64,000 nucleotides of DNA. It comes from a virus. The notes below the pieces were generated by a model. The model made no database searches and was not told where the DNA came from. It saw nothing but the letters and a program-made list of their open reading frames with translations. How positions within the stretch are numbered: the stretch's first letter is position 1; every line of letters begins with the position of its first letter. A program made the translations under genes and the position numbers. The stretch covers positions 1 through 64,000 of IMG/VR virus record IMGVR_UViG_3300035665_003403; one strand, 5' to 3'. This document shows, piece by piece, positions 3,533 to 51,596 of the stretch.

Positions 3533-6177
3533 CCTTGATAAATATCAGTACATCCAATTATTTTTGATGGTCTTCTCAAATAAGTATTTATTATTATACT
3601 AGTTGATGTGTCAGATAGGTCGGTAAAACCAGCTTGTGTTATTTTACAACCATAACCAACCTGACCATCAAATGGGTCAACAATACCAGGTATTGGTATT
3701 GTTAAATTTGGGATACAATTTGAACCATCTGGTGTTACTACTTTAAATGAAGAGTCTTGTCTTGAAAATTTCAAATATAAGTCACCATTTATATTTATAT
3801 CATCATCAGTTGGGTTTACTTTCCAGCTACAACCAACATAAGAGCCACATAATTGTGATGAATCGCAACAAATATAACCTGAATTTATAATTGTTTCACT
3901 CAAAACCGCAGTACCAAATGTATCATACATAAATGGTGTTCCATTATTTAATAAACAACATTCTTGAGATGTATATTTAGAAGTTCTTAACACTAAAGAA
4001 CCATTTTCATAATATGGTGTACCATCTGAATTGTACTGATAATATTGGAATATTAATACCCCTTGTACTTCGTTACCGTTTTCATCAAATGGTGTTGTAC
4101 CAGCCATATTAACACAAGGTGTTTCTTGGTTATTATTAGCATCCTTAGATATACAAATACTAAGTGATTTATTTATTGACGTGTTGTCACAACCACATTC
4201 ATTTTTTGAATCATGAACTGGGTTATCAATTAACATTGGTTCAATGACTAGGCAACCATCCAAATCAAATCCATTTAATGTAGAGCTATTAACATATGTT
4301 TCTCCACTATAATTATTAATACTACCAAAATTATAATTATAAAATAATTCATCAACAACCTCAGTTATTGTTTCACTAGTTAATGTTAATCCAGAATAGT
4401 TTGGAATTATATTTGTAAATTGACTCAAATACTTACTACCTCTATCATATGGTCCAACGTGTGGGTTATTACCACTATTTTTATCGATAGTAGGTTGTAG
4501 CCCACCAGTTTCTCTATACCATAATCCATTACCTTGGAAGTAAAATTCATCTGAATCTATTGGTTTTGGGTATCCATTGATATCTACTGGGTATAATGAT
4601 AAATCGGTACTAAGATTATTCAATGATAAAATGCTATTAAAATAATCCATATCGATTTTATTTTTAGCTAAATAGTGATATTCATTAAAATCAATTAAAC
4701 CATTTGGTGTCCCAATCATCTTGAATAAAAATTCCACACTCTTTCTAGTACCTTTTGACTTCCAAATCCAAGGTGCATTTAAAACCAATCTTCTCCAAAA
4801 TTCAATTTCTGATTCAGCTGGAGTTAAACCATAAGTTTGTCCAGAATATGTTGATTTACTTACGGAAGTATATGAATTTAATAAATTGGTGTAATCAACC
4901 ATAGATGGGATTGCATCCCAACCCATATTTCTGGCTATATTTTTAACATTTAAATCTGGGGTATTATCTAACTTATCATATGAAATACTATTTGCTATGG
5001 ATATTCCATATATTAGTTGATTCATATCATCAAATGACCTACCATATATTGCTAATAATTTACTTATCTTTTGACCATCATCATCGTTAATTGTGTTTAA
5101 AACTATAGGTAAAGTATCGAATTCACTTATTGAGTTAGAAACTAGGAATCTTCTAATTAAATTTGAGGATTCTAAATCCGATTTTTCAGATAAATTTAGT
5201 AGTTTATTTGCATAATCAGTATAATCTGTTGTTTGATAATCTAGATTATAACCATCAAAAACTGGCCATGTTATATTTTCTATTGTATACAATAAAACAC
5301 CACTATTAGATACCATTGGTATTGAAAATGATGCTCTATATAATGGGATTGATTGTCTATTCAATAAATGTTTCTCAAATACAGATAAACTATTGAAAAA
5401 CTTATTACATTGGATATCGTTTGGTTTAATATGAAAATAACTTGAGCCTGAAACACCAGAAAATGGATTTCCATTAACCTGTATTGTTAAATAATCATTA
5501 TTTAGTGATGTTGCACCAGTAAAATTAGTTATAGGGTATTCAATATTATTGATTAAAACACTATAAGAAGCATAATTTACTGAAATATTTCTTAATGAAT
5601 TTTCGTTTGTAAACGAATTTAATACTTCACCATCAATTAAAAAATTAATACCATACTGATTAGATATATTATTAGTTGGGACTGTAAATGAAGCTGTGTT
5701 TGTTGTTAAATCAAACGAATAATTATTGTATGTTGTACCAGTTATAACACCAATACCAGTTGTTGTGTTTATAATTGGTGTTACATATAAGGAAGCTGGC
5801 CAATTTAAAATTATTTTTTCTAAAGAAACTCTAACAAATTCTGTTAATGACCCAAATAATGCGTAATTTTGTAATTTAGTGTTATCTAAATTTAGTGAAT
5901 ATTTAAAATTGTTATCTAATATGGTTATTGTTTCACTTATTGTTGAATCTAATGTGGTTAATGATTCAAAATTAGAAAAACTTGTTGTTGCGTAATTTTT
6001 ATCTTTTTTTTTAGATAAATTTGTTGTAACAACAAATGAACCTACAGAAAATTGTGGTGTGTTTTCACTATTAGTGAATTGTAAACCAACCACATCAGTT
6101 GAAAATGGACGATATTCTATATTATCGTTAAAAAATACTCTTTTGGCGTAACCTGGTACCCTTATTCTATTAGACAT
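3529..6177 (-). CDS. gpI-like baseplate protein
   Basis: An 882-aa protein. The middle (about residues 370-510) resembles the P2 gpI / phage tail protein I family: a YGRSFDDMN segment, a D/N-rich NVKNIARNMGWD helix, then EFWRRLVLNAPWIWKSKGTRKSVEFLFKM broken over residues about 465-490, where tail-protein-I members carry a comparable 'K.GT..ai' turn. The N-terminal third is beta-rich and unrecognised. The C-terminal 220 residues are cysteine-rich (CGCDN, CCLLNNG, CCDSSQLCG) and could bind metal or form cross-links. It overlaps both neighbours by a few bases. In P2-like tails gpI joins the baseplate wedge to the fibre, and here the next gene downstream is the fibre-type protein. Family assignment is moderate. 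Confidence 0.55.
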   Translation of the reverse strand: MSNRIRVPGYAKRVFFNDNIEYRPFSTDVVGLQFTNSENTPQFSVGSFVVTTNLSKKKDKNYATTSFSNFESLTTLDSTISETITILDNNFKYSLNLDNTKLQNYALFGSLTEFVRVSLEKIILNWPASLYVTPIINTTTGIGVITGTTYNNYSFDLTTNTASFTVPTNNISNQYGINFLIDGEVLNSFTNENSLRNISVNYASYSVLINNIEYPITNFTGATSLNNDYLTIQVNGNPFSGVSGSSYFHIKPNDIQCNKFFNSLSVFEKHLLNRQSIPLYRASFSIPMVSNSGVLLYTIENITWPVFDGYNLDYQTTDYTDYANKLLNLSEKSDLESSNLIRRFLVSNSISEFDTLPIVLNTINDDDGQKISKLLAIYGRSFDDMNQLIYGISIANSISYDKLDNTPDLNVKNIARNMGWDAIPSMVDYTNLLNSYTSVSKSTYSGQTYGLTPAESEIEFWRRLVLNAPWIWKSKGTRKSVEFLFKMIGTPNGLIDFNEYHYLAKNKIDMDYFNSILSLNNLSTDLSLYPVDINGYPKPIDSDEFYFQGNGLWYRETGGLQPTIDKNSGNNPHVGPYDRGSKYLSQFTNIIPNYSGLTLTSETITEVVDELFYNYNFGSINNYSGETYVNSSTLNGFDLDGCLVIEPMLIDNPVHDSKNECGCDNTSINKSLSICISKDANNNQETPCVNMAGTTPFDENGNEVQGVLIFQYYQYNSDGTPYYENGSLVLRTSKYTSQECCLLNNGTPFMYDTFGTAVLSETIINSGYICCDSSQLCGSYVGCSWKVNPTDDDININGDLYLKFSRQDSSFKVVTPDGSNCIPNLTIPIPGIVDPFDGQVGYGCKITQAGFTDLSDTSTSIIINTYLRRPSKIIGCTDIYQG

Positions 6178-37018: not shown

Positions 37019-39469
37019 TTAATATGGATTAGGTGATAATTTACCTAAATTTAAATTTTTGCTTACTTGTTGTGAAATTAACCTTGTCATTTCTGAAATG
37101 AAATTTTGGTCTTTTGTTAAATCTAAATTATTTATTCTACCGTTAGGTGTATTTAAATTGATAGTACCAGCAAATTCAATTTTGATTGGTTCAATAGTGT
37201 ATTTAACATTATTTTTATTCTTTCCTTTCAATGATTTATCAATAAAACCACTATTTTTCATAGCTAATAAATCATCTTTGTTATCAATAGGATTTATCCT
37301 ACCATCTTGTATAATTGCTCTACCTTTACTAAAATTATTACTCAATGGTGATTTGATAACACCATCATGCATTGGGGTACCCATATAATCACCAATCATC
37401 TTACCCCCAGCTGAACCCAATCCACTTCCAACCATAGCACCCATTGGTCCACCAACCAATGCACCAATAACCCCACCAGCAATTGTACCGATAAGCGAAC
37501 CCATATCTCCACTTGAATTATTTGTGGTATTTACACCAATACTTTTCATAGCTTCAGTACCTAAATTACCAAGACCAAACCCAACCGCACCACCAATTGC
37601 AGTAGCACCAATACCTTTTAATAACATTTTACCAATACCAGCAAGTCCAGTACTCATCATACCTTGAAAGGTTTTTAAAAATGAACCACCAGCAGCACCA
37701 GCATTGAATCCCTTGGCTAAGATGAAACCATTCATCAACCATTGTGCTTTATCAAACAAGAATTCACCAGCTTTCAATAATCCGTACATAATTCCAGTTT
37801 TTATTGGATTATCAAGTATGAAACCACCTACAGTTGTAACTACTTTTCCAACTAAACTAGCAAATTCACCTATTTTATCAATCCATTTTTCATTTCTAAT
37901 TCTTTCTACTAAATCTTTAACTTTAGGCATCAAGTCTCTATTTAACCCTTCAATCAAAGGTAACATTGCCGTCTTAAATAGCGTTATAGTGTTGTTTAAG
38001 GCATCATCGAAGGTTTGGTTAGACTTTGCCATCTCTTCTAAGTTTGCTTTCTCTTCAGCTAATATTTTTAATTGAGCTATATCTTGGTTAGATAGTTCAG
38101 ATACCAATTTCTTGATTACTTTTCCATCTTTCATTGAAAATGCTATTTCAGCTTTTCCATTTTTACCAATAGTTGCTGTATTTTCAATAAATTCTTTTAC
38201 ATCATCCTTTACAGATAGTTTTATTTGTGAATCAATGTTAGCGAACTTAGCCGCATTCTTAGCTGATTTAACCAAATCCTCAAATGCAACACCAGTTTGT
38301 TCAGCAACATTCCTTAATATCTGCATATTCAATGAACTAATATCAAACTCACCAGTTTCCTTATTCAACTTAGCAGTACCCTTAGTAGCATTAACAACAC
38401 TCTTCAATAAACCATCCATATCATTCCTTGCCATATACATCAATTTGAATGGGTCACCCAATTTAGACCATTCCCCACCCAATACCTGTAATTGAGCCGA
38501 CATATCAATAGCACCTTCAATATTGAATAATTTATCAGCCATACCACTAACAGTATCCATTTGAATACCCATCTTGGTTACAGTTGAAGCCATCTCAGCT
38601 AAACCCTTGGTTCCATTCTTGAAGTTATACTTGTTAATAAGCTTAAACCCTGATTGTATGTTTTTGACCGTTTTTGATGCGTTTAAGCCTAGTTTGTGTG
38701 TTTTATCTAACGATTCCTCAACGAAGTCCCTAACACGCTCTGTAGCGAAGCCTATTGTCTCCATTTCAGAAGCCATCTCAGCAGCACCTTCAGCACCCAA
38801 GATAGTCCCTTTGGCTAATTGAGCCATTGCTTTATGAGATTGTTCAGTAAAAACAACGTTTCTACCCAAAGAATCCGAATAAGAAGCTTGCATCTTAGCC
38901 AAATCCTCAACCCCAACACCATAATCTAATGTAGAATATTCAGCAGCTTTTATAATAGCATCTCTAAACCCATTTGTTTGTCTAACCAACACACCCATTT
39001 CAAGGGCTGCGTTTTTCATAGATTTATCCATTTCGAATAAACCACTAGATTTTATTTGACCATAACTACTTTTGATTAACCCAGGCAAAGCAGCAAATCC
39101 TTTTACCAAGTTGACACCCAACTGAGCTATAACAATCCTACCCTTGTTTACAGACTTAACAGCATCACCAATCAAATCACGTTGAAGTTCTAATTGTTTT
39201 GTTTGTTTTTTTAACTCATTTAGTTTTGCGTTTTCATTATCAATATCATCTTGAGTTATATTATTTTGACCAACTATCATGGCTGATATGTCAGCCACCA
39301 TTTTCTTTTCAATTTCGGTCAAACGATTTATTTCCTCGTTTGTTTTTTTTAAATCTTTGATAGCATCAACGTAAGACTTAGCACTAGAACCAATCTGTGC
39401 TTGTAACTCTGCCATTTTTTTTAATTCTCTGACAGCTTCTTTTATTTCTTTTGGTGTTAATGCAGCCAT
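37019..39469 (-). CDS. tail tape measure protein
   Basis: An 816-aa protein. Residues about 5-110 are charged, helical and coiled-coil-like (AVRELKKMAELQAQIG, KTNEEINRLTEIEKKMVADI). The middle has long helical segments with a TMP-like pattern (AMAQLAKGTILGAEGAAEMA, GLAEMASTVTKMGIQMDTV). Residues about 620-695 form a Gly/Ala-rich hydrophobic block (IGGAVGFGLGNLG, GTIAGGVIGALVGGPMGAM). Tape measures set tail length and are ejected into the host envelope; at 1.5 angstrom per residue this predicts a tail of roughly 120 nm. Position after the chaperone-type genes is canonical. Its ATG overlaps the 473-aa gene by one base. Confidence 0.87.
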   Translation of the reverse strand: MAALTPKEIKEAVRELKKMAELQAQIGSSAKSYVDAIKDLKKTNEEINRLTEIEKKMVADISAMIVGQNNITQDDIDNENAKLNELKKQTKQLELQRDLIGDAVKSVNKGRIVIAQLGVNLVKGFAALPGLIKSSYGQIKSSGLFEMDKSMKNAALEMGVLVRQTNGFRDAIIKAAEYSTLDYGVGVEDLAKMQASYSDSLGRNVVFTEQSHKAMAQLAKGTILGAEGAAEMASEMETIGFATERVRDFVEESLDKTHKLGLNASKTVKNIQSGFKLINKYNFKNGTKGLAEMASTVTKMGIQMDTVSGMADKLFNIEGAIDMSAQLQVLGGEWSKLGDPFKLMYMARNDMDGLLKSVVNATKGTAKLNKETGEFDISSLNMQILRNVAEQTGVAFEDLVKSAKNAAKFANIDSQIKLSVKDDVKEFIENTATIGKNGKAEIAFSMKDGKVIKKLVSELSNQDIAQLKILAEEKANLEEMAKSNQTFDDALNNTITLFKTAMLPLIEGLNRDLMPKVKDLVERIRNEKWIDKIGEFASLVGKVVTTVGGFILDNPIKTGIMYGLLKAGEFLFDKAQWLMNGFILAKGFNAGAAGGSFLKTFQGMMSTGLAGIGKMLLKGIGATAIGGAVGFGLGNLGTEAMKSIGVNTTNNSSGDMGSLIGTIAGGVIGALVGGPMGAMVGSGLGSAGGKMIGDYMGTPMHDGVIKSPLSNNFSKGRAIIQDGRINPIDNKDDLLAMKNSGFIDKSLKGKNKNNVKYTIEPIKIEFAGTINLNTPNGRINNLDLTKDQNFISEMTRLISQQVSKNLNLGKLSPNPY

Positions 39470-40890
39470 TACTTGTTAATTTCTTTTTTATTGTACTCAT
39501 ACCCCTCAGAATCAGGTAGCATTTCAATAACGATTTCAATTACCTCATCTGAATTAAGTATTACATATTCACCAGTTTTATTGTTTCTATAAAACAATTC
39601 TAATATACATTCAAATTTATTATTTTCCAATTCTTTAACTATATAAAATATAAACCCAGATTCTCTATTAACTAATTCAATTTCTTCAATACCATATTTA
39701 ACTACAGCAGTATATGTTGAATCTTTATAGAAATCTCTATTTATATCTTTATTATTTATTGAATATTCTTTAGTTATTGGTTCTAATACTTTAAATTTAA
39801 CACTCCTACCTTTTTTAAATTTATTTGCTGATTCACCAATTTTATCCTCATATTTACCCAAAGAATATTTATCAATTAATTTTAATGTAGCAACAACACC
39901 TTTACTTTCAAAATCCTTATTCTTTAATCCATTGATGAACATATTAAATAAAGTAGGTGATTTATAAAAAGCAGACTTTAAATTTTCATCATTAATTATT
40001 TTATATAAGATGTCTTTTGACTCACTACTTTGCTCATCATCAATAATTTTATTATCAAATTTATCTTCTCTGGTACAATTATCTTTAATTTCAATACTAT
40101 CAATAGATATAAACTCATTTTGTTCATCTTCACCAACTAGTTTAATTAATTTTAAATATGGTACATTACCACCTTTTAACATAAAATTATCATAATCAAC
40201 ATCAGTAAATATGTCTTTTTCTAATTCAATTTTAATTTGATGTTTTCGTAAATTAGATAATTCATTATTATCATCCTCAATCATGTATAATGAAAAATTA
40301 TTACCATTTCTAGAATCAACACAAAAAATAACTTTTGATTGATTATAAAGTGTTATAACTAGACTATTACCCTCATTTGCACTTAATATTTCATTTCTAA
40401 ATTCATTTAAAGAAGCATAATCATTATCATCTAATTGATAAGTTGGTTCTAATTCTGTCGCTTCTGGGTCATTAGGTGTTGAATCATCAAATTCCAAAGA
40501 ATCAATAATTTTATTATTCCTTATAATATCTAATGACTTTAAATCAGTTAACGGTTTAAATTCCCAAGTTTTAGGGTTTTTAATATCAATACCATCTTTG
40601 CGTTTAGTTTTATGCGCCCTTTTAAATGTTAGCTTTTTATTAGATAAACTATCTAAACTAAGTAAATAATAATAATTAATATGCTCAGAACCTGGATTTT
40701 TATTTTCTAAAAATAGATGGTCACCATCTTTTTGTATAACCTTAAATATCAAACCGTCAGTATTCTTAAATGAAATTCTAATGATATCACCTACTTTAAT
40801 AACAGAATCAATCAAAGTATCATAAGTACTTTCTAACAGTATCTTTTCAACCCTCTTTAATTGTTCATTTGTGATAATTAATCGTTTCAT
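39469..40890 (-). CDS. hypothetical protein between chaperone and tape measure genes
   Basis: A 473-aa protein with the N-terminal leader MKRLIITNEQLKRVEKILLE, similar to leaders on other window genes. It contains repeated small beta-barrel-like segments: VGDIIRISFKNTDGLIFKVI with GDHLFLENKNPG, LVITLYNQSKVIFCVDSRNG with NFSLYMIEDDNN, and KKGRSVKFKVLEPITKEYSI. The rest is Asn/Asp-rich and acidic. It is coupled to the tape measure gene by a one-base overlap. A TATTTATA motif lies three bases before the ATG. A role in tape measure folding or as an internal protein is possible from position only. Confidence 0.6.
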   Translation of the reverse strand: MKRLIITNEQLKRVEKILLESTYDTLIDSVIKVGDIIRISFKNTDGLIFKVIQKDGDHLFLENKNPGSEHINYYYLLSLDSLSNKKLTFKRAHKTKRKDGIDIKNPKTWEFKPLTDLKSLDIIRNNKIIDSLEFDDSTPNDPEATELEPTYQLDDNDYASLNEFRNEILSANEGNSLVITLYNQSKVIFCVDSRNGNNFSLYMIEDDNNELSNLRKHQIKIELEKDIFTDVDYDNFMLKGGNVPYLKLIKLVGEDEQNEFISIDSIEIKDNCTREDKFDNKIIDDEQSSESKDILYKIINDENLKSAFYKSPTLFNMFINGLKNKDFESKGVVATLKLIDKYSLGKYEDKIGESANKFKKGRSVKFKVLEPITKEYSINNKDINRDFYKDSTYTAVVKYGIEEIELVNRESGFIFYIVKELENNKFECILELFYRNNKTGEYVILNSDEVIEIVIEMLPDSEGYEYNKKEINK

Positions 40891-40901: not shown

Positions 40902-41132
40902 TTAAACTAATGGAACATTACCACTATTAATCATATTTTTTAATGCATCACCACTAACTTTTCTAGTTCTACTACCATTTTTAGTTTGTGATTGTCTTGC
41001 TTCTTCCATTTGTTCTTCACGTCTATGCTTATCTCTAATAAGCATATTTAATCTAAACCTTCTTTCATTAACTGGCATTTCCAATATATCATTCCTACTC
41101 AAATTATTTAATAATTGATTACAAATATGCAT
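40902..41132 (-). CDS. tail assembly chaperone-type small protein, possibly frameshift-expressed
   Basis: A 76-aa helical protein when counted from the ATG at 41132. The SRNDILEMPVNERRFRLNML segment resembles the C-terminal 'T' part of tail assembly chaperones and small T4-like assembly factors (leucine-Met-Pro, then E-R). The frame stays open upstream of the ATG through the end of the gp26-like gene (reading GLTSDYKETLIEEM), suggesting synthesis as a fusion by frameshifting at a T7 run at 41178-41172. The basic C-terminus (RQSQTKNGSRTRKVSG) is polar. Synteny just upstream of the tape measure region supports the chaperone idea; the family call is moderate. Confidence 0.5.
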   Translation of the reverse strand: MHICNQLLNNLSRNDILEMPVNERRFRLNMLIRDKHRREEQMEEARQSQTKNGSRTRKVSGDALKNMINSGNVPLV

Positions 41133-41151
41133 TTCTTCAATTAAAGTTTCC

Positions 41152-42237
41152 TTATAATCTGATGTTAGGCCAAAAAAAGTTGATGTTAAGTGGAAGAAAG
41201 GTTTTTAAGGAACCACCTCCAGGGGTTCCAACAGTAACTTCCAAATCAATGTTTGGTTCATTAGCTTCCAAATACTTTATAAAATCACTAGAATCCTTTA
41301 ATAACATATTTGACACATATTCAATTATCGATATAGAATCACGTCTTCCATTAACCTCAACAATAATTCTACTTAATTCATATAGTTTCCTTTTGTTAAT
41401 TGGTACTCCATTCTTTTCATCTTCCTCAAGCATCTTTTCTATATCTTCAATATCCCCAACAGTCAAAAACCTATGTTTTATAACATCTTTTCTAACACTC
41501 GTAACATACTTAATCAAGCCATTTTCATCAACCTCTAATTTCAATTCCTTAAGCTTTAATGTACTCAAATCAATCTCAGATTCAAATGGTTCATTATTTT
41601 CATCAATAAGCGTTACTGGGTACTTTTCACCATAAGCAGTTGCTCTTAACCAAATCATAATAGTGTTTCTATCCCCAACAATCAAATCCCTATAATTTAA
41701 ATTTTGTTCCAATAATTTCCTCTCAATTAATATCTCAAGGAACTGACCACTACCCAATAAGTTGGGTGATGTTAATATAACCTCATCCATTGTTGTCATA
41801 AATGAGACTTTAAGGTTTGATTTAACGTTATGATATAACTTACCTAATGACGGAATAGGGATAACATCATAAGCTGAACTCCAATCCCTTTCTTTTAAAT
41901 TATTCAACATTTCATTATTGATTACCATATCTTCCATCGGTTTTTTAAGTTCAACTTCTTTTATAATCTTAGGATTAGATGCAACTGGGTTAGATAGAAG
42001 TTCATTTGATTTACCCTCTCTCTTAGCTTTGATTCTTTCATCAAATAATTTAGCTTTTTCTTCCATTTCTCTCATCTGCTCTTCAGTCCTCTTTCTCATT
42101 TCCTCAATTCCTTTATCCATACCAGTTGCCTTGGCTGAATCTGTATAGATTTCATTAATGACTTGTTTTTTGGCTTCTTCAAATTTTTCTGTTTGGGATT
42201 TATCACCCTCATTCTTTGGGAACACTTCTGGTTTCAT
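41152..42237 (-). CDS. gp26-like / T4 baseplate-family protein, tail assembly factor
   Basis: A 361-aa protein from the ATG at 42237; an in-frame TTG at 42255 would add six residues. Residues about 1-115 are a charged coiled coil (GMDKGIEEMRKRTEEQMREM). From about residue 120 the pattern resembles the T4 gp26 family: VIPIPSLGKLYHNVKSNLKV, MTTMDEVILTSPNLLGSG, LIVGDRNTIMIWLRATAYG. The 'IPS-G-Y', 'DE-L' and 'LR-YG' features also occur in tail assembly chaperones that bind the tape measure. A T7 run (41178-41172) seven codons before the stop codon may allow frameshifting into the next frame. Confidence 0.55.
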   Translation of the reverse strand: MKPEVFPKNEGDKSQTEKFEEAKKQVINEIYTDSAKATGMDKGIEEMRKRTEEQMREMEEKAKLFDERIKAKREGKSNELLSNPVASNPKIIKEVELKKPMEDMVINNEMLNNLKERDWSSAYDVIPIPSLGKLYHNVKSNLKVSFMTTMDEVILTSPNLLGSGQFLEILIERKLLEQNLNYRDLIVGDRNTIMIWLRATAYGEKYPVTLIDENNEPFESEIDLSTLKLKELKLEVDENGLIKYVTSVRKDVIKHRFLTVGDIEDIEKMLEEDEKNGVPINKRKLYELSRIIVEVNGRRDSISIIEYVSNMLLKDSSDFIKYLEANEPNIDLEVTVGTPGGGSLKTFLPLNINFFWPNIRL

Positions 42238-42846: not shown

Positions 42847-43542
42847 TTAAGAAGTTATAGTTAGTTTCTTATAATTTATAATTAAACTTATTATATTGAT
42901 GTTATTTAATGCATAATCTGATTTGCCAAAGTCAATAAATTTTATTACACAATCACCCAAAACATAACGGTCAACCAAAGCACCAGTAGGGTCTATAATT
43001 TCAATTTCTAACGAAAATTTCTTATTGGTTTCTAAATATGTAATTAGTTTATTAATGAAATTACCAGGTAAATCACGTATATTTAACTTAATATCAGAAT
43101 ACTTTCTTTTACGACTATAAGTAATCCCAAATATTTTTTTCTCTTCAATATAAATTATTGGTTTTTCTATTGATGAAATAGAGTAAGCTGGAATCGTCAA
43201 TTCTTCTGGTAAATTAACCAAAAACCTATTAGTTAGCTTAGGTTCAAAAACAATTGGTAATTTATTTAATAAACTTATCCTATCTGTTAATGGATTTTTT
43301 TTACCAGTTAATTTCTCATATTCCATATTTGGTTCACCAGTATGTTGGTCAAATAGTGGAATTTCATTTTTTTTCTTTTCTAAGAAATCATCTATTGATT
43401 TTGCATAGTTTTTATCTTCTAAAAATTTACTCTTAAAACTATTAATTGATAAATATCTTTTATTAGTTGGTGGTTGATTTCCGTGTAATGTAACACCTAA
43501 GAATTTATCTTTCGTAAATCCACTTAAATTTTTGTTTTCCAT
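42847..43542 (-). CDS. tail tube paralogue, likely tube initiator (gp54/gp48-like role)
   Basis: A 231-aa protein whose C-terminal 135 residues align by eye with the tail tube protein (44594-45082). Matches include EPKLTNRFLVNLPEEL against EPLRKNRWLITFPADL, ISSIEKP against LSSASRP, and IEIIDPTGALVDRYVLGDC against LEMLDPTGVVVQKWLLDGT, then (V/I)xFxDFG against VSFGDLA. An N-terminal extension of about 95 residues is charged and absent from the tube protein. In T4, gp48 and gp54 are extended tube-fold proteins that start tube polymerisation on the baseplate; this gene fits that role. The two genes were probably adjacent before the endonuclease inserted. Confidence 0.68.
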   Translation of the reverse strand: MENKNLSGFTKDKFLGVTLHGNQPPTNKRYLSINSFKSKFLEDKNYAKSIDDFLEKKKNEIPLFDQHTGEPNMEYEKLTGKKNPLTDRISLLNKLPIVFEPKLTNRFLVNLPEELTIPAYSISSIEKPIIYIEEKKIFGITYSRKRKYSDIKLNIRDLPGNFINKLITYLETNKKFSLEIEIIDPTGALVDRYVLGDCVIKFIDFGKSDYALNNINIISLIINYKKLTITS

Positions 43543-43593: not shown

Positions 43594-44469
43594 TTAATTT
43601 AATAATTCTCGTTTTAACTCATTAATTACCCACTCAGTATTGTTATTTATATCTGACTCCCAAAATCTTAATAACTTAATATCGTTTTCTTCAGCTAATA
43701 AATTTTTTCGTATATCATTACCAACTGTTTTTATTTGTATTGGAAATGTTGGTATTTTGTGTTTTGTATTAGGATTACAATGATGGAAATCACCATCAAC
43801 CTCAATTAGTACATTATTTTTAATAATTAAAAAATCAAAAATAGCGTTACTTAATTGATGTTGGTATTTAAACTCGATATTTAAATCAACTAATATTTGT
43901 TCGAATCTTTCTTCCAATTTAGTTTTACTATTCCTGTAATTATTTTTAATTAATCTACTTATTAATCTTTCTGATTGTTTATTTCTTTCATCTACCTTCT
44001 CCCAACGCAATTTACTGAATTGTTTAATTTTAGCTATATGTTCATCACTCTTAGGAACACCACTTAATGCTTTTGATATGTTCTTACCACGCTCTGGGTT
44101 AGCCATAATTTTATTAATATTATCTCTAACCCTATCATCATCCATTGTTAATCCTTTATTCCAAACATTTAATTCACCATTTTCATGCATCTTTTTTTGA
44201 GTCTCATGTGATTTTCTTATAGCTTCTGGATTATGCCCCCAATTATTATTAACCCTAGATGCATGACCACGTACATAATCAACAAATCCTTTCTCAATAG
44301 ATAAAAAATTAGTTTTTTCACCACACCCACACTTGCACGTTGGTTGAACACCATCTAACTTATAGTCAATATATGTTTGCTCAGCACTAACTTTGTGCTT
44401 CTGAACACGATGTCTTCTTAATCCATCCAGTGTTTCAAATTCTCTATCACATTCTTTACATTTAAACAT
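43594..44469 (-). CDS. homing endonuclease, zinc finger plus Vsr-like nuclease
   Basis: A 291-aa mobile endonuclease. A C2H2 finger (Cys4-x2-Cys7-x12-His20-x4-His25) is followed by a small Cys cluster (CKCGCG, 45-50) and a NUMOD3-like DNA-binding helix (GKNISKALSGVPKSDEHIAK, about 128-147). The C-terminal nuclease is of the Vsr/EDxHD type: FDFLI with Asp212, then LIEVDGDFHH (Glu223, Asp225, His229, His230), then NDIRKNLLAEENDIKLLRFW and ESDI. Such enzymes cut the cognate uninvaded locus and spread by repair. It lies between the tail tube gene and its paralogue and has its own Bacteroidota-type promoter. Confidence 0.78.
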   Translation of the reverse strand: MFKCKECDREFETLDGLRRHRVQKHKVSAEQTYIDYKLDGVQPTCKCGCGEKTNFLSIEKGFVDYVRGHASRVNNNWGHNPEAIRKSHETQKKMHENGELNVWNKGLTMDDDRVRDNINKIMANPERGKNISKALSGVPKSDEHIAKIKQFSKLRWEKVDERNKQSERLISRLIKNNYRNSKTKLEERFEQILVDLNIEFKYQHQLSNAIFDFLIIKNNVLIEVDGDFHHCNPNTKHKIPTFPIQIKTVGNDIRKNLLAEENDIKLLRFWESDINNNTEWVINELKRELLN

Positions 44470-44593: not shown

Positions 44594-45082
44594 TCAAAAA
44601 AGTAATATAGCCCTATCAAATCTTAATGTTGCCGTGATTTCTGCGATACCGTCATCGTCCATAGCCAAGTCACCAAAGCTAACATTAGTAAGCATAGTAC
44701 CATCTAGAAGCCATTTTTGAACAACAACACCAGTTGGGTCAAGCATTTCAAGTTCCACAGGTCTTTTATAACCAACAGCATAACCTTGACGACCAGTAAT
44801 TGATTCACTATGTAAACGAACCCATTCCATAATTGCTTGTGTTGCAGAAGGACCAATTGGGTCTCTAAAAACAACATCGATTGCTTCCCATGTAAATCTA
44901 CCAATAACCCATGTTGATGTATTCAAGAATTGTATCTCAGTTTCATTTTGTGTTATTGATGGTCTAGACGCTGAAGACAGCCACCATTGCTGAATTCCCA
45001 AATCGGCAGGGAATGTTATTAACCATCTATTTTTCCTTAGAGGTTCGTAAGGTAATGGCATTTTAACTAATAAATCTGACAT
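44594..45082 (-). CDS. gp19: tail tube protein gp19-like
   Basis: A 162-aa protein, the same length as T4 gp19 (163 aa). The sequence MPLPYEPLRKNRWLITFPAD, then RPSITQNETEIQFLNTSTWV, then LEMLDPTGVVVQKWLLDGTM with VSFGDLAMDDDGIAEITATL is typical of the gp19 beta-barrel family. Hexamers stack to form the inner tube through which DNA passes. In T4 it is adjacent to the sheath gene; here the two are separated by a plus-strand endonuclease island and three minus-strand genes. The 86-bp gap before the plus-strand gene holds motifs for both directions. Confidence 0.92.
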   Translation of the reverse strand: MSDLLVKMPLPYEPLRKNRWLITFPADLGIQQWWLSSASRPSITQNETEIQFLNTSTWVIGRFTWEAIDVVFRDPIGPSATQAIMEWVRLHSESITGRQGYAVGYKRPVELEMLDPTGVVVQKWLLDGTMLTNVSFGDLAMDDDGIAEITATLRFDRAILLF

Positions 45083-45168: not shown

Positions 45169-46812
45169 ATGAATAAAGCTAATGAATTTATAAAAAAAGC
45201 TATTAAAAAATTTGGTGATAGGTATGATTATTCAGAAATGCAATATATTTCATCAATAGAAAAGATTAATATTAGATGCAATAAACATAATATCATTTTC
45301 AATCAACTACCTTCAGCACATTTACGTGGTCAGGTGGGATGTCCTGTATGTAAAAACAGAATAACTACAACAGAAGAATTAATAAGCAAAGCGAAAGAAA
45401 TTCATGGTGATAGATATGATTATTCCAATACAAAATATGTTGATTCAAAAACAAAGATTAAAATTATATGCAAAGAGCATGGTGAATATGAACAATACCC
45501 AAATAATCATCTGATAAATAATTGTCCTAAGTGTGTTATTAAAGCTAACGCAATTGGTAGGACATTAAATAGCCAATCATTCATCAATAAATCAATTTTA
45601 AAGCATGGTGATAAGTATGATTATAGCTTGGTTGATTACATTGATTCTAAGAGCAAGGTTAAGATTATATGCAAAGAGCATGGTGAATTTGAGCAAATAG
45701 CTAGTTCACATATTAGAGGCAAGGGGTGTGAACTATGTGGTATAGAATCCAGGAATTCAATGAGTAGACATACAAAAGAAATGTTTATCAGTAAGGCTAA
45801 TATAATCCACAATAACAAATATAGTTATGATTCACTTGTTTATAAAAATGGTGTATCCAAAGTACTTATAACTTGTAAAAAACATGGTGAATTTGAACAA
45901 TATGCTTATGACCATTTAACTGGTCATGGTTGTAGTAAATGTAGTTCATCTGTATCAAAACAAGAATTGGAATTAATTGAATTTATAAGTAGTTTAGGGT
46001 TAAAGGTAAAAACTAGAGATAAATCAATCATAAAGCCGATGGAATTGGATATATTTATTCCATCACATAATATCGCAATCGAATTCAATGGGTTATATTG
46101 GCATAATGAATTATTCTTGGATAAGAATTATCATTTGAATAAAACAATTCAATGTGAAGAAAACGGGATAAAGCTTATACATATATTTGAAGATGAGTGG
46201 GAGTTTAAAAAAGATATTGTTAAATCAAGGCTTAAGAATATACTTGGATTGACTGAAAATAAGATATTTGGTAGGAAATGTGAGGTAAGAATTGTTTCAC
46301 AAAAAGATGGTGAAATATTTTTAAATAACAATCATTTGCAAGGCAATGTAAATTCAAGTGTTAGGCTTGGATTATATTATGATGATGAATTGGTATCTTT
46401 GATGTGTTTTAACAAACCAAGATTAGGGGTTGGAATTGGTTATGATGGGCATGAACTTAGTAGGTTTTGTAACAAATTAGATATAAATGTTATTGGTGGT
46501 GCTTCTAAGTTATTATCTCATTTCATAAAAGATAATTCACCAAATAAGATTATTAGTTATGCTGATATGAGGTGGAGTACTGGTGATTTATATGATACCT
46601 TAGGTTTCATAGAGTCACATAAAAATAAGCCAAATTATTGGTATGTAGTTGGAAAACAACGTAAACATAGATTTGGGTTTAGAAAAGAAATTCTCAAGAA
46701 AAATGGTTTCGATACCACCAATAAAACTGAACATGAAATTATGCTTGAAAGGAAGATGTACAGGATATATGATTGTGGAACTATAACATATAGTAAATCA
46801 TTTGTTGATTAA
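45169..46812 (+). CDS. homing endonuclease with four DUF723-like zinc repeats
   Basis: A 547-aa protein. Four repeats of about 55-65 residues fill the first 260 residues, with the DUF723 pattern F-x3-A/S-x3-HGD(R/K)YDYS, a K-(V/I)-x-I-x-C-x2-HGE(F/Y)-E/xQ and a final C-x2-C. The nuclease core follows at about 285-345 (ELDIFIPSHNIAIEFNGLYW, then a GIKLIHIFEDEW segment), a Vsr-like pattern. The C-terminal part (about 370-530; VRLGLYYDDELVSLM, ISYADMRWSTGDLYD) is a further domain typical of these mobile nucleases. It lies on the opposite strand to the tail genes, between tube and sheath, so it is probably a mobile insertion. Confidence 0.78.
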   Translation: MNKANEFIKKAIKKFGDRYDYSEMQYISSIEKINIRCNKHNIIFNQLPSAHLRGQVGCPVCKNRITTTEELISKAKEIHGDRYDYSNTKYVDSKTKIKIICKEHGEYEQYPNNHLINNCPKCVIKANAIGRTLNSQSFINKSILKHGDKYDYSLVDYIDSKSKVKIICKEHGEFEQIASSHIRGKGCELCGIESRNSMSRHTKEMFISKANIIHNNKYSYDSLVYKNGVSKVLITCKKHGEFEQYAYDHLTGHGCSKCSSSVSKQELELIEFISSLGLKVKTRDKSIIKPMELDIFIPSHNIAIEFNGLYWHNELFLDKNYHLNKTIQCEENGIKLIHIFEDEWEFKKDIVKSRLKNILGLTENKIFGRKCEVRIVSQKDGEIFLNNNHLQGNVNSSVRLGLYYDDELVSLMCFNKPRLGVGIGYDGHELSRFCNKLDINVIGGASKLLSHFIKDNSPNKIISYADMRWSTGDLYDTLGFIESHKNKPNYWYVVGKQRKHRFGFRKEILKKNGFDTTNKTEHEIMLERKMYRIYDCGTITYSKSFVD

Positions 46813-46828
46813 ACCTATATTTATATGT

Positions 46829-47893
46829 ATGAATTTATTTATAAAGAAGTTATTACGTGAGAATTTACAATTAGCTGATAAATTATACTTTAAAACAAAT
46901 AAGATATCTGAAGAAGGTAAAGATATCATCTTAAGTATAACCAATGGTGACAATACAACTAAAATAATTTCTGATATTTATTCAAATGTTAAGTTACATT
47001 CACACTTTGGTACTAAAAAATTTATAAACTATTTAAAAGATATTCATAATTCATTAGTTAACTACAATAAAAATGTTTTACCAATAGAAAATTTTGATTT
47101 ATACAAATCAAAAGGTGATGAATTATTTTCGTTATTTATTGAACGAATTAAATGTTTAAAAAAATTAAATAAACTACCAAAAGTTGCCATTAGAAATTTA
47201 AAAAACGATATTAGGTTAGAACGTGACTATAATGATTTTAGAACATTACTTAATGATATAGAATATATAACAACACATTTATCATTATTAAATAATAGAG
47301 ATAATTCAGCTAAAAATAAGATTTACAATAAATTATTTAAGAGTGATATAACATTCAGTAGACTAACTCAAATAATTGACGACAAGAAAAAATTAATTGG
47401 CGGTAATAAATTAACCCTTAAAGCAATAAAAGAGATTATTGATTCTGATGATGATTTACAGATAAAGTATTTTAAAAATAAAGTAATGGTTGTTGAGGTT
47501 GGGTCACCATATGCTATTAAAAAGATTGGATGTAATTCATTATGGTGTTTCACATATGATAATTCTAATTTTAATCATTTATGGAAACAATGGCATGATT
47601 ACTCAACAAATGAAATCTGTTACGTTATCATTGATTTTAAACAATCTAGTGATAGTTTAGATTTTATGCATGTATTAGTTAGTCCATTAGAAAGTGAAGA
47701 AACTTATAATACAGATGATTTTGATGCCCACACACCATTATATTCTATGGATAATGAAAATATATACAACCCATATGGTGTATTATATGATTTAGTTGGT
47801 AAAGATAATATTGATAAGATTTTCACATTTGATTATGAAACTGAACCAATCAACGAAACCCAAATATTATTAAGACTTGGGCTGGTTTATTAA
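46829..47893 (+). CDS. hypothetical protein in the plus-strand island
   Basis: A 354-aa protein starting at the ATG at 46829 (MNLFIKKLLRENLQLADKLY). An upstream in-frame TTG at 46802 would add nine residues but lies in the end of the endonuclease gene. The N-terminal leader with KKLLREN resembles leaders found on other phage proteins here. Residues about 30-230 are helical and lysine-rich. The C-terminal domain (VMVVEVGSPYAIKKIGCNSL, WCFTYDNSNFNHLWKQW, YVIIDFKQSS) looks like an alpha/beta domain also seen in other phage hypotheticals. It converges on the metallopeptidase gene and overlaps it by 24 bases. The function is unknown. Confidence 0.55.
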   Translation: MNLFIKKLLRENLQLADKLYFKTNKISEEGKDIILSITNGDNTTKIISDIYSNVKLHSHFGTKKFINYLKDIHNSLVNYNKNVLPIENFDLYKSKGDELFSLFIERIKCLKKLNKLPKVAIRNLKNDIRLERDYNDFRTLLNDIEYITTHLSLLNNRDNSAKNKIYNKLFKSDITFSRLTQIIDDKKKLIGGNKLTLKAIKEIIDSDDDLQIKYFKNKVMVVEVGSPYAIKKIGCNSLWCFTYDNSNFNHLWKQWHDYSTNEICYVIIDFKQSSDSLDFMHVLVSPLESEETYNTDDFDAHTPLYSMDNENIYNPYGVLYDLVGKDNIDKIFTFDYETEPINETQILLRLGLVY

Positions 47894-48268
47894 GTTTTTA
47901 ACTTGAACCAATAAGTATTCAAAGAAATATGTAAACGCTTCATGGTTATTGGCTTTTATCTTAACACCAACATGGTCAAGTATTGCCCATGTTAAGTGAA
48001 TCAATTCATGTTCAACGGTAGTATTATTATGCTTAAGCAATTCATTTGAGTTAATAAACATAAAGAATCTATTTTTAAGCATTCCTTCAAATTTATATGA
48101 TGTTTCCCATTGGAACCCTCTAGCGTCATTTGCTAAGTCTAATGTATCTTCATTATCAAACTCATCATTTATATGTTGTATTGCTTCTATACATGAATCA
48201 TGAAATATAACAAAAACGTCTTGATTATATATCGATGTATCTATTTTATGATGAGTTATTTTTGTCAT
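47870..48268 (-). CDS. small HExxH metallopeptidase-like protein
   Basis: A 132-aa protein with a zincin motif His87-Glu88-Leu-Ile-His91 (VEHELIHLTWAIL) and a likely third ligand, Glu110, in NNHEAFTYFFEYL. Both features match small phage metallopeptidases. There is no signal peptide. The substrate is unknown; a cytoplasmic role in protein processing or host takeover is possible. Its start overlaps the 3' end of the 136-aa gene by four bases and its 3' end overlaps the converging plus-strand gene. The fold is inferred from the motif spacing only. Confidence 0.6.
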   Translation of the reverse strand: MTKITHHKIDTSIYNQDVFVIFHDSCIEAIQHINDEFDNEDTLDLANDARGFQWETSYKFEGMLKNRFFMFINSNELLKHNNTTVEHELIHLTWAILDHVGVKIKANNHEAFTYFFEYLLVQVKNLINQPKS

Positions 48269-48675
48269 TTGTTTAAGTTAAGAACTGTTGTTATATCTAA
48301 TCTATCTTTGATATTTGATTCCTTAGCCAATGAATTAAATGTGGAAACCAATTTATTTGCATTTTTACTCATAAAAGATTTAGGGTCTTTCACACCCAAG
48401 ATTTCCATAGCATCAAATAATTCATCCAATTGAGATTCATCTTCAAGCATATTTTTTATCTTAGACATGATTTTAGGGTTAGTAATGGCTTTATTTGATA
48501 ATTCCAAGTTATGACCACTCTGATTAAATTTGGTGCCATTAACGGCTTTATTTAGAATCAAACCGATTCCCAAGATACATTCTTTTTTACTCTCAGTAAT
48601 TAAAGTCTTAAACTTTAAATTATATTCAAATAGTTTTTCTTGTTGTGATTCAGTTATAATCAAAGTCTTTTTCAT
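48265..48675 (-). CDS. hypothetical protein with recurrent N-terminal leader
   Basis: A 136-aa helical protein starting MKKTLIITESQQEKLFEYNL, a leader similar to those at 40890 and 25011. The remainder is a series of short helices (KIMSKIKNMLEDESQLDELF, DPKSFMSKNANKLVSTFNSL). It forms a coupled pair with the metallopeptidase gene. A TATTTATA motif lies four bases upstream of the ATG. The function is unknown. Confidence 0.58.
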   Translation of the reverse strand: MKKTLIITESQQEKLFEYNLKFKTLITESKKECILGIGLILNKAVNGTKFNQSGHNLELSNKAITNPKIMSKIKNMLEDESQLDELFDAMEILGVKDPKSFMSKNANKLVSTFNSLAKESNIKDRLDITTVLNLNK

Positions 48676-48752: not shown

Positions 48753-51596
48753 TTAAATATCATCGAATGAAGCCCCAGCGTTTGTTAGTACGAAGTCAAT
48801 CTTTATAAACTCTAGTGAACGAGTTGGTTTCAACCAAATAGTTGCATTCAATTCATTTCTATCCAAGTCTTCTGGTGCATCAGATATAGCCACTCTAAAG
48901 TCAATAAGACCTCTTTGTGTTCTAATATTATTAAGGATTGGGTTAACCATAGCTAAGAATTGGCTTCTAACTACTGAATCATTTTGTTCGAAGATAAGTC
49001 TTAAACAAGCTGATGAAATCAACTTTCTAGTTTGCAATAAAAGTCTTCTAACATTTATTCTATTAAGGGCTGTTTCATTAACTTGAAGTGTTTTATTACC
49101 CCAAATCTTAATACCTTCAGTATTGAATGTGAATATTGGGTTAACTCTAGCATCCAAAAGAGTTTCATTTTCACCAACTGTTAATTTCTTTCTTGCTTTG
49201 ATAGCATCCACGTTACCTCTTTGAAGACCAGCAACTGCGAACCAAGAATAAGATATATTATCAGTCAAAGCTATGTTTCTAACAACATCTCTTGTTGGTG
49301 GAACGTACACATAAGCATTATTTTCAGAATCCAATATTTGAATCCAAGGCCAATATGTTGCTGTGTAGCTACTATCATATAAACCATCAAGTGAATCTGC
49401 AACATCAGCTGCTGATATAACATCACCACTAGCATCTGTATCTGGTGTTGTAACGATATAAAGTGAGTCACTTCTATCATCTTGAATCATATCGATTGTA
49501 GCTTCAACCAAGTTACTATTATCGAATGTATCGATACCTGGTGTAGCCAATACGTTAATATTTATAGCTTCAGGGTTATTAAACGTCCAAATTGCTTCAA
49601 GGTAAGCATAGTAATCGGATGTGATACCTAAATCACCATTTGTAAGTGTTCTATTTGCGAATGTATCAACCAATAGACCAGCAGCACCTTTAGTTCCATT
49701 TATCGTATATGAATCTTGGTTACTTCTTCTAGTTCTATAGATATCCCATCCATCAAAACCACCATAAGGTGCCATTGTGAATTTACGAGCATAAATTTTC
49801 TCATAAGGAGTATTTAGTAATCCAGCTTCAGTTCTAAATTCAGCATCACCAGTATCAAATAAGAATATTGGTGAGTAAGTACCTCCACTTGAGTTAATTA
49901 CTATTTCAACACCATCAATAGTTGCTCCTGTAGCATCGATATCCATGTGGAATCCTTTTGTTAATCCAGTCCACATATCTAAAGTAGAACTTTCTGGTTT
50001 TCCTTTGTAATCAAAGAAGTCAGCATCAATACCGATAGTATTTGATAAACCTAAATAATATTTTCTTTTGTTTTCAAAAGCACTATAAGATGTTTTATAA
50101 GTGATTGATGGAGAAAGAACTGATGAATTACCATTTTCATTATAATCTCTAACTGGATACCCAATAAACCCAGCAGGGAATGCTTCACTTATATCATTTT
50201 CAGTATCAAATTCAACTAAAACATATAAAGATTTTGAAGCATATTCACCATCTAACGTACCTATTTTCTTACCAATATAATTATTAGATTCTGGGTCTAA
50301 TGTACATCTAGTAAAGCTTTCCAACACTTGAATATTAGCATCAGTATCATAGAATCCTCTAACAATAACATCAAACTCTTTTGTATCTGGTTTAATATTA
50401 GTGATTGATATCTTAAACTGCTCATTTGCCGCATTACCATCAGAAATTGTCCAAAACCTGAATAATCTAAGAACTTTATTACCTCTTAATTCTGATACAA
50501 CATATGGTGTAACAGCTGGAGCAAATTCCACCAAATAATCATCAAATTTATTACTATAATTAATAGGTGTTAAGTTAACACCTCTAACTTTTTCATCATC
50601 ATTGTAATTTTCGAACATTTCTGAATAGAATTCTTCAACAAACAATGCTGTTTTACCATCTTGGGCACCTCTACCTAAAACCTTAGGTAAGTAATTTCTT
50701 TTTGTTTTATCCAAAGATAATCCATAACTAAACGCACCTTGTGTTGTTGATGCTCCTGTTAATGTGAAGTCACCTAATGGATTTGTTGTAGCACCAGTAA
50801 CTGATGGGTTAAACCCAACTCCAGTAGCACCAGTAACTTCAAAATCAACCAATTGTGTTGTTTGATTAACAGTTCCTCTAGACCTTAATAAGGCTACCAA
50901 TTTATTTTCAACATCAGAATAAGATGTACCAGAATAAAAAGTTGTAACACCACTTGTTGTTCCAGTTAAATATGAACCACTTGTACCAGTAGATATAACA
51001 TTCAACGTAAATGAAACACCACTAAAGTTATCACCAGTTTTTAAATAATATGGTGATATTGATGAAGTTGTACCAGTATTTGATACACCCAAGAAAGCTA
51101 ATTGGTCTGTTAAAGTACCATTATTTATTAATGATTGAATCAATGAAACACTTGAAGAAACTACCACGTTTGTTCCACCAGTAGTTGCACTATAAGTTAT
51201 CAATGATGCAACATTTGTTGGGCCACTTGTAATACCATATGTACTATTATCCATAGCTGCATCTAATGTAATACCCCATGCTAAACCAGCGTCATAACCA
51301 GAATAACCTAATACTCTAGTTACAAATAATTGATTTGATTGACTAAGATAAGATTTAGCAATATATGCCAATTCATATTTAGGGGCACCAGTATCTTTTA
51401 TTAACGTATTATCTAAACCACCAAAAAATGATTGGAATTCATTATAATTGCTAATGAATATAGGTTGAAACGCTGGTCCAATTGTTGTTTCACCAACCAA
51501 ACCTAATGTTGTAACACCAACTTGACGGGCTACATATGTTAAGTCTCTTTCTGATGTGTAAATACCTGGACTTACGAATACTCTTGATTCTGACAT
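48753..51596 (-). CDS. gp18: tail sheath protein gp18-like
   Basis: A 947-aa contractile sheath protein. The N-terminus (VFVSPGIYTSERDLTYVARQ, GLVGETTIGPAFQPIFISNY) and C-terminus (INVRRLLLQTRKLISSACLR, then FRVAISDAPEDLDRNELNAT and IWLKPTRSLEFIKIDFVL) are diagnostic of the family. The core is conserved, but the length exceeds T4 gp18 (659 aa) because of a Ser/Thr/Gly-rich insertion (about residues 115-305, with repeated TGTTSG-type segments) that probably decorates the outer surface. It is followed by a strong terminator and preceded by a 97-bp leader with a TATTTATA motif and a small hairpin. Confidence 0.96.
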   Translation of the reverse strand: MSESRVFVSPGIYTSERDLTYVARQVGVTTLGLVGETTIGPAFQPIFISNYNEFQSFFGGLDNTLIKDTGAPKYELAYIAKSYLSQSNQLFVTRVLGYSGYDAGLAWGITLDAAMDNSTYGITSGPTNVASLITYSATTGGTNVVVSSSVSLIQSLINNGTLTDQLAFLGVSNTGTTSSISPYYLKTGDNFSGVSFTLNVISTGTSGSYLTGTTSGVTTFYSGTSYSDVENKLVALLRSRGTVNQTTQLVDFEVTGATGVGFNPSVTGATTNPLGDFTLTGASTTQGAFSYGLSLDKTKRNYLPKVLGRGAQDGKTALFVEEFYSEMFENYNDDEKVRGVNLTPINYSNKFDDYLVEFAPAVTPYVVSELRGNKVLRLFRFWTISDGNAANEQFKISITNIKPDTKEFDVIVRGFYDTDANIQVLESFTRCTLDPESNNYIGKKIGTLDGEYASKSLYVLVEFDTENDISEAFPAGFIGYPVRDYNENGNSSVLSPSITYKTSYSAFENKRKYYLGLSNTIGIDADFFDYKGKPESSTLDMWTGLTKGFHMDIDATGATIDGVEIVINSSGGTYSPIFLFDTGDAEFRTEAGLLNTPYEKIYARKFTMAPYGGFDGWDIYRTRRSNQDSYTINGTKGAAGLLVDTFANRTLTNGDLGITSDYYAYLEAIWTFNNPEAININVLATPGIDTFDNSNLVEATIDMIQDDRSDSLYIVTTPDTDASGDVISAADVADSLDGLYDSSYTATYWPWIQILDSENNAYVYVPPTRDVVRNIALTDNISYSWFAVAGLQRGNVDAIKARKKLTVGENETLLDARVNPIFTFNTEGIKIWGNKTLQVNETALNRINVRRLLLQTRKLISSACLRLIFEQNDSVVRSQFLAMVNPILNNIRTQRGLIDFRVAISDAPEDLDRNELNATIWLKPTRSLEFIKIDFVLTNAGASFDDI

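Follow-up and report, generated by a model that had tools for sequence, protein, structure and literature searches.

A candidate +1 frameshift site at the end of a gp26-like tail assembly chaperone gene in a T4-like phage and its relatives

The gp26-like gene, its overlapping reading frame and the tail module

The DNA analyzed here (the window) is a stretch of 64,000 nucleotides, positions 1 to 64,000 of IMG/VR record IMGVR_UViG_3300035665_003403, which is a virus contig of 148.8 kb. On its minus strand is a gp26-like open reading frame encoding 361 amino acids (41152..42237), which starts at the ATG at 42237, stops at 41154-41152 and has the 3' end AAC TTT TTT TGG CCT AAC ATC AGA TTA TAA. An earlier note on this DNA, made without database searches, had pointed to AAC TTT TTT TGG near the stop codon and to a downstream frame, offset by one base, that is open through the run of T's. 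Both features are present as described. The T run occupies exactly positions 41178-41172 of the minus strand within the putative shift site (41170..41181), and the offset frame reads GLTSDYKETLIEEM. Past the slip site, the 0 frame of the gp26-like ORF encodes only WPNIRL before it stops. The second ORF is in the +1 frame relative to the gp26-like ORF, which is equivalent to -2. Its frame opens after a stop codon at 41207-41205, 11 codons ahead of a GGC codon at 41171-41169, and closes at the stop codon at 40904-40902. Counted from the GGC it comprises 89 codons plus the stop (40902..41171, minus strand), and this part is referred to below as the T domain, a putative chaperone extension (TAC-C). 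The first ATG of the frame lies at 41132-41130, where the note had placed it and 13 codons into T, and a gene caller would be expected to report the 76-amino-acid ORF that begins there (40902..41132, minus strand).

The chaperone locus lies within a tail module, between genes for the tail tube and a probable tape measure protein. The tail tube protein is gp19-like (44594..45082, minus strand; phrog_4542, E=4.9e-23) and about 90% identical in relatives L002-L007. A second tail-tube-like protein (42847-43542; phrog_4542, E=2.4e-8) is possibly a tube initiator like gp48/gp54 or a paralogue of the tube protein. The contractile tail sheath protein (48753..51596, minus strand) matches Pfam Phage_sheath_1C and Phage_sheath_1. 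The probable tape measure protein (37019..39469, minus strand) has a glycine-zipper region and 35-44% identity to the ORFs that follow T in relatives L003 and L006, and the gene in the equivalent place in Flavobacterium phage immuto is annotated as tape measure. It is the expected client of a tail assembly chaperone. One extra gene, of 473 amino acids (39469..40890, minus strand), separates T from the tape measure gene in the window. This gene is present in L006 and L007 and absent from L003, where the tape measure gene directly follows T.

Other features of the module were observed in passing. Three insertions, at 43594-44469 (minus strand), 45169-46812 and 46829-47893 (both plus strand), encode a C2H2 zinc finger plus DUF559 endonuclease-like product, an opposite-strand treble-clef/Vsr-like product and one unknown neighbour, and look like homing endonucleases or mobile genes. 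The motif ATATTTAT occurs in the 40 nt preceding the ATG in 10 of the 39 minus-strand ORFs of at least 100 amino acids (mean 0.6 and maximum 5 in shuffles), as in those starting at 42237, 42825, 43542, 48675, 40890, 56600 and 62805, and in relatives L003-L007 too it is found ahead of genes. Most of the T4 late promoter TATAAATA, read as its reverse complement, is contained in the motif, a possible late promoter element. A similar N-terminal stretch (MKRLIITNEQLKRV, MKKTLIITESQQEK, MKIIVNERQYNLIK, MSNKLIITEEQYSK, MKIRITENQYDLIL) is shared by several proteins, encoded at 39469-40890 and 48265-48675 of the window and by the genes following T in L004, L006 and L007; it is possibly a targeting signal.

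The gp26/gp51 family and conservation of the junction

The earlier note had likened the predicted fusion to the G/GT proteins of other phages, a comparison that homology to T4 gp26 (short form) and gp51 (long form) now supports. The short form of the window alone matches phrog_150 (baseplate hub) with E=2.5e-4, and the fusion does so with E=2.5e-6, covering positions 61-281 and running through the junction. The Pfam search returned no PF12322 hit for the window protein; the fusion of relative L030 matches phrog_150 (8.7e-16) as well as PF12322 (31.4 bits, cut-off 24.5). T4 gp26 and gp51 each match PF12322 and phrog_150, and since gp26 covers positions 14-235 of the 282 in phrog_150 and gp51 covers positions 13-280, gp51 corresponds to gp26 with a C-terminal extension. 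Fusions built across a T TTT TTY site in 12 T4-like or jumbo phages, where the extension is in the -1 frame, are colinear with T4 gp51 (E=6.6e-10), and their alignment with T4 gp26 (E=1.4e-16) ends at the junction. The +1 and -1 fusions in turn align with E=2e-24, with FFG of the former on FFR of the latter in the same column. The short form is thus homologous to gp26 and the fusion to gp51.

An AlphaFold model of the window fusion, computed from its sequence and unaltered rows from the fetched loci, has a mean pLDDT of 83, a low-confidence linker at the junction (residues 352-359) and a predicted helical T domain (residues 359-419). The structures it matches best are those predicted for gp26/gp51-type viral proteins called 'baseplate hub'. 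A fold search of the PDB with the model returned no significant solved structure (the HK97 tail chaperone 2ob9 had E=2.8), and the T ORF alone gave no direct sequence hits in isolated phages.

A first protein search, in which one query pattern overlapped the site, returned seven relatives with 25-55% protein identity. The junction of all seven carries AACTTTTTTTGGCC or a near copy of it, T being in the +1 frame, and the retention of nucleotides in relatives of only 25-55% protein identity argues that the site is not due to chance. Since that pattern overlapped the site, two better tests were run, namely a scan of DNA alone and a search with site-blind profiles. The scan of IMG/VR for AAYTTTYTTTGGCCTNAC matched at least 120 stretches. 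Among the matches listed, all 120 are located in the 3'-terminal part of a gp26 homologue whose 0 frame stops 5-12 codons past the site, and 118 have a T domain fitting the profile in the +1 frame, the other two being cut by the contig end.

The site-blind search used profiles that covered only the N-terminal region of gp26, and not the site, against IMG/VR and the GTDB genomes. At least 177 loci were scored and a T domain was detected in at least 171, both totals being lower bounds; in all 171 listed T is in the +1 frame, and in none is it in the -1 frame or in frame with gp26. These loci are related to one another, so the counts are not independent. Five of the six loci lacking T end at a contig edge. 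The sixth, in a Paramuribaculum MAG (L317, JAIDJW010000161.1), has a gp26-like gene with a different gene immediately downstream and no T extension detectable in any frame, and it is the sole clear exception within the site-blind set.

Two checks on relatives had been proposed in the earlier note, and both support its reading. YTT followed by T is retained in 171 of the 171 listed site-blind loci, and no relative examined has an in-frame stop codon separating the T run from the extension, the T frame being open across all of them and matching the T profile. The junction reads TTT TTT TGG in 148 of these loci, TTT CTT TGG in six and TTC TTT TGG in six, with TTT TTT TTC (five), TTT CTT TAC (three), TTT TTT TAT (two) and TTT TTT TAC (one) making up the remainder. 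The codon proposed to occupy the P site is TTT in 162 loci, CTT in nine and TTC in none. Phenylalanine at this position is accordingly encoded by TTT in 162 of 162 of these related loci, versus 74-80% elsewhere in the same genes, in which TTC makes up 20-26% of the Phe codons. The 0-frame codon in the A site is UGG in 160 loci, UUC in five, UAC in four and UAU in two; at the shift site UGG is a sense codon, not a stop codon.

More distant isolates have variants of the site. The cultured Flavobacterium phage immuto has CTT TGG (in full, AGC TTT CTT TGG C), SP-15 has TTT CAC and Streptococcus phage GXN1 has TTC TTT CGT C, all three being compatible with a forward slip on UUU or CUU. In an uncultured phage of 484 kb (L011, LR756508.1, approximately positions 4720-4745), the junction reads AAC TTT CTA TTC CCT ACC with T in the +1 frame, which is compatible with slippage at UUU_C one codon earlier and CUA in the A site.

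How the long form would be made

The site and its conservation, like the +1 frame of T and the homology to T4 gp26 and gp51, are read directly from the DNA; from them we infer that frameshifting occurs at the site with re-pairing of the P-site tRNA as its step. Very probably, the event is a +1 slippage at YUU_U that yields a short (TAC-N) and a long (TAC-NC) tail assembly chaperone. Most ribosomes would stop at the TAA at 41154-41152 and release TAC-N, while a minority would shift +1 at the T run. In these ribosomes, tRNA-Phe on the UUU at 41175-41173 would re-pair with the overlapping UUU one base 3', with UGG (41172-41170) in the A site; the T at 41172 would be skipped and translation would resume at the GGC codon at 41171-41169 to give a fusion of 444 residues (...NINFF-GLTSDYK...). 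On the model of lambda gpG/gpGT and T4 gp26/gp51, the window proteins would function as chaperones, both forms coating the tape measure protein and recruiting tail tube subunits. The arrangement at the junction is that of other TAC-N/TAC-NC (G/GT) pairs, in that a conserved slippery sequence lies close to the end of the short ORF and the second ORF, in another frame, has no conserved start of its own.

The direction of the shift had been given in the earlier note as +1 or -2. The frame stands, and the direction is most likely +1. A base that allows the same tRNA to pair in the +1 position follows the P-site codon as YUU_U in all 171 listed loci and as UUU_C in SP-15, GXN1 and LR756508. The invariant YTT plus T supports a +1 shift, being just the sequence required for a P-site tRNA to pair again after a forward move of one base. 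A canonical -1 frameshift (X_XXY_YYZ) does not account for the extension, which is outside the -1 frame in the window and in each of the 171 listed site-blind loci. A -2 shift, in which the P-site tRNA moves back two bases within the T run as in phage Mu (PMC5009743), would reach the same frame with one extra Phe. Pairing rules permit such a move at TTT TTT T sites, which together with TGG make up 148 of the 171 loci, and the change from CTT to TTC would be tolerable through first-position wobble. They do not permit it at the TTC TTT T sites (six loci) or at the TTC TTT C of GXN1, where tRNA-Phe would be left on UCU, and TTT CTA in LR756508 offers no -2 pairing at all. Moreover, the T that follows the P-site codon in 171 of 171 loci is needed for a +1 shift but not for a -2 shift. 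Because the TTC TTT T variants re-pair in the +1 direction only, +1 is preferred and -2 appears improbable. The two directions would differ in the junction peptide, expected in the window phage as TFLPLNINFFGLTSDYK for +1 and TFLPLNINFFFGLTSDYK for -2; in immuto the expected tryptic peptide is FFPEDGPDGGVDIPIGVSFLGLTPEYR for +1, with one extra Phe after SFL for -2.

T could also be an independent gene, initiated at the ATG at 41132 or at an upstream start and translationally coupled to gp26, in which case no fusion would be made. The window and several relatives have an early ATG in T, and 105 of the 171 listed loci have a start-like codon ahead of the junction in the T frame. The positions of these starts are not conserved, however, and in 46 of the 171 loci there is no ATG, GTG or TTG from the upstream stop to codon 20 of T; in L002, L004 and L010 no ATG occurs before T codon 29-57. 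The nucleotides of the slip site are fixed, and T4 gp51 represents the fused form as a single protein. In addition, coding constraint in the T frame begins at the junction, ahead of the ATG. The earlier note had argued for coding sequence upstream of that ATG, and a comparison of the eleven preceding codons within the window's own group bears this out, with T-frame difference rates of 0.26, 0.15 and 0.55 at codon positions 1, 2 and 3. The high third-position variability follows the 0 frame up to the junction and the T frame beyond it, a switch of coding phase at that point. In 12 listed loci, a T-frame stop codon three codons ahead of the junction and a 0-frame stop codon 3-10 codons past it confine the shift to the T run. 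Separate initiation as the sole source of T is therefore considered very unlikely. Since the ATG at 41132 is not conserved and the codons upstream of it are under T-frame coding constraint, it is most likely not the true start of T, and the window phage may make a separate ATG-initiated T product beside the fusion.

Slippage by RNA polymerase that drops or adds U's would give mRNAs already in the T frame, and a run of seven T's is in principle long enough for this. Such transcriptional slippage is disfavoured and seems highly improbable because the frame relation is unchanged where the run is broken to three or four T's (TTTCTTTGG, TTCTTTTGG, TTTCTTTAC), as in 15 of 171 loci and in both immuto and GXN1. 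The notion that the gene is really one fused ORF, split by faulty sequencing or assembly of an error-prone homopolymer, has virtually no chance of being correct, as it is contradicted by the same split in hundreds of independent contigs, in the complete isolate genomes of immuto, Mel-JY01, SP-15, LIS04 and GXN1, and at sites where the T run is interrupted.

No strong stimulator of the proposed +1 shift was found among upstream Shine-Dalgarno-like elements and 3' RNA structure. No Shine-Dalgarno element at the short spacing of the RF2 type is evident upstream of the T run. In one subgroup most members have GGAGG at a distance of 17 or 23 nt ahead of the T run, which was not taken as a stimulator since its spacing is unlike that of RF2 or dnaX and it encodes a conserved Glu-Val. 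On average, the RNA 3' to the site is slightly more stable than shuffled sequences and than control stretches (mean z -1.04, versus -0.19 in the controls), though not in the window itself (z -0.98), and this is a weak sign of a conserved downstream structure. The codon on which the ribosome would wait is nearly always the single Trp codon, so the ratio of the two chaperones could track the supply of charged tRNA-Trp. It is conceivable, if doubtful, that tail assembly responds to charged tRNA-Trp in the host in this way, and that a UUU_UGG +1 shift with little aid from stimulators has been fixed in a large lineage.

Spread of shift direction and comparison with known systems

A tree built from 67 gp26 sequences places the window in a group of 51 rows that are all +1 (support 100/98). 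Outside this group are SP-15, LIS04 and GXN1, which are also +1, and -1 jumbo phages. The direction of the shift changes only two or three times over the whole tree, and is thus a stable lineage trait; the deep part of the tree and the T4 rows have long branches and are uncertain. The 12 phages with a T TTT TTY -1 site just before the gp26 stop codon are P-HM1, S-SSM7, S-SM2, S-CAM1, Syn10, pf16, ACP17, the Straboviridae phage CZ01, OLIVR6, S-PM2, XacN1 and RAS14 (loci L318-L323, L325-L327, L140, L136 and L137). They span phages of cyanobacteria (S-PM2, P-HM1 and Syn10 among them), Pseudomonas, Acidovorax, Vibrio and Agrobacterium as well as the jumbo phages XacN1 and RAS14, and their annotations either start the gp51-like ORF at an internal ATG or leave it out.

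A review described G-T frameshifting as conserved in long-tailed phages 'except T4' (PMC5009743). The tail chaperones of T4-like phages were identified by Vladimirov, Gautam and Davidson in 2022, and that work, as cited in PMC10885494 and PMC12846349, describes the T4 group as having one gene for the short form and another for the long, and others as having -1 poly-T signals. The assignment of gp26 and gp51 as the T4 chaperone pair and the -1 shift in cyanophages were derived independently here, but in view of these citing papers they are reported as known. A literature search that covered a minority of subscription papers found no description of the +1 clade, and a +1 shift at a sense codon throughout a clade looks new. 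Hundreds of mostly uncultured relatives appear to share with the window's T4-like phage a +1 route to the long chaperone. One chaperone family would thus meet the same ratio problem by three routes, which are a -1 shift, a +1 shift and, in T4, two genes. The +1 sites form a large natural alignment that offers material on forward slips in the bacterial ribosome without a stop codon. In genomes of the +1 clade, gene callers miss or truncate the T extension; in immuto the region is annotated only as a 36-codon ORF.

Frameshifting in tail chaperone genes is a classic case of recoding, and nearly all characterized examples are -1. T4 gp26/gp51 and the TAC-N/TAC-NC pairs of T4-like phages belong to the same family (PF12322/phrog_150) and share the split point, the two forms and the place in the tail module. 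T4 has two genes, other T4-like phages use -1, and the window clade, which is separate and well supported, would use +1 at YUU_U(GG). Lambda gpG/gpGT and the chaperones of other long-tailed phages are like those of the window in having two forms, a frameshift and a place upstream of the tape measure gene, whereas lambda and most others shift -1 and their protein sequences are not detectably related to those of the window. The earlier note had named Mu (-2) and PSA (+1) as chaperone precedents. The former holds, but the +1 shifts of PSA are in capsid and tail-shaft genes (PMC5009743). The tail chaperone of Halorubrum myovirus HSTV-2 very likely uses +1 (PMC5009743); this direction is proposed for both it and the window, the host of HSTV-2 being archaeal.

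At the level of mechanism, RF2 (CUU_UGA_C), PSA (CCC_UGA) and influenza PA-X (UCC_UUU_CGU) all involve +1 slippage of the P-site tRNA onto an overlapping codon. The CUU_U of RF2, by far the most efficient shift codon of the RF2 type (PMC5009743), and the UUU_Y of PA-X are also used in the window clade. RF2 has a Shine-Dalgarno stimulator, and none of that type is evident in the window clade. RF2 and the PSA tail-shaft site have a stop codon in the A site, while the window clade has a sense codon (UGG in 160 of 171). In this respect it is like PA-X and the PSA cps site, where a sense codon also occupies the A site, and the TTC TTT CGT C of GXN1 resembles the UCC UUU CGU of PA-X, a proven +1 site (PMC6165434).
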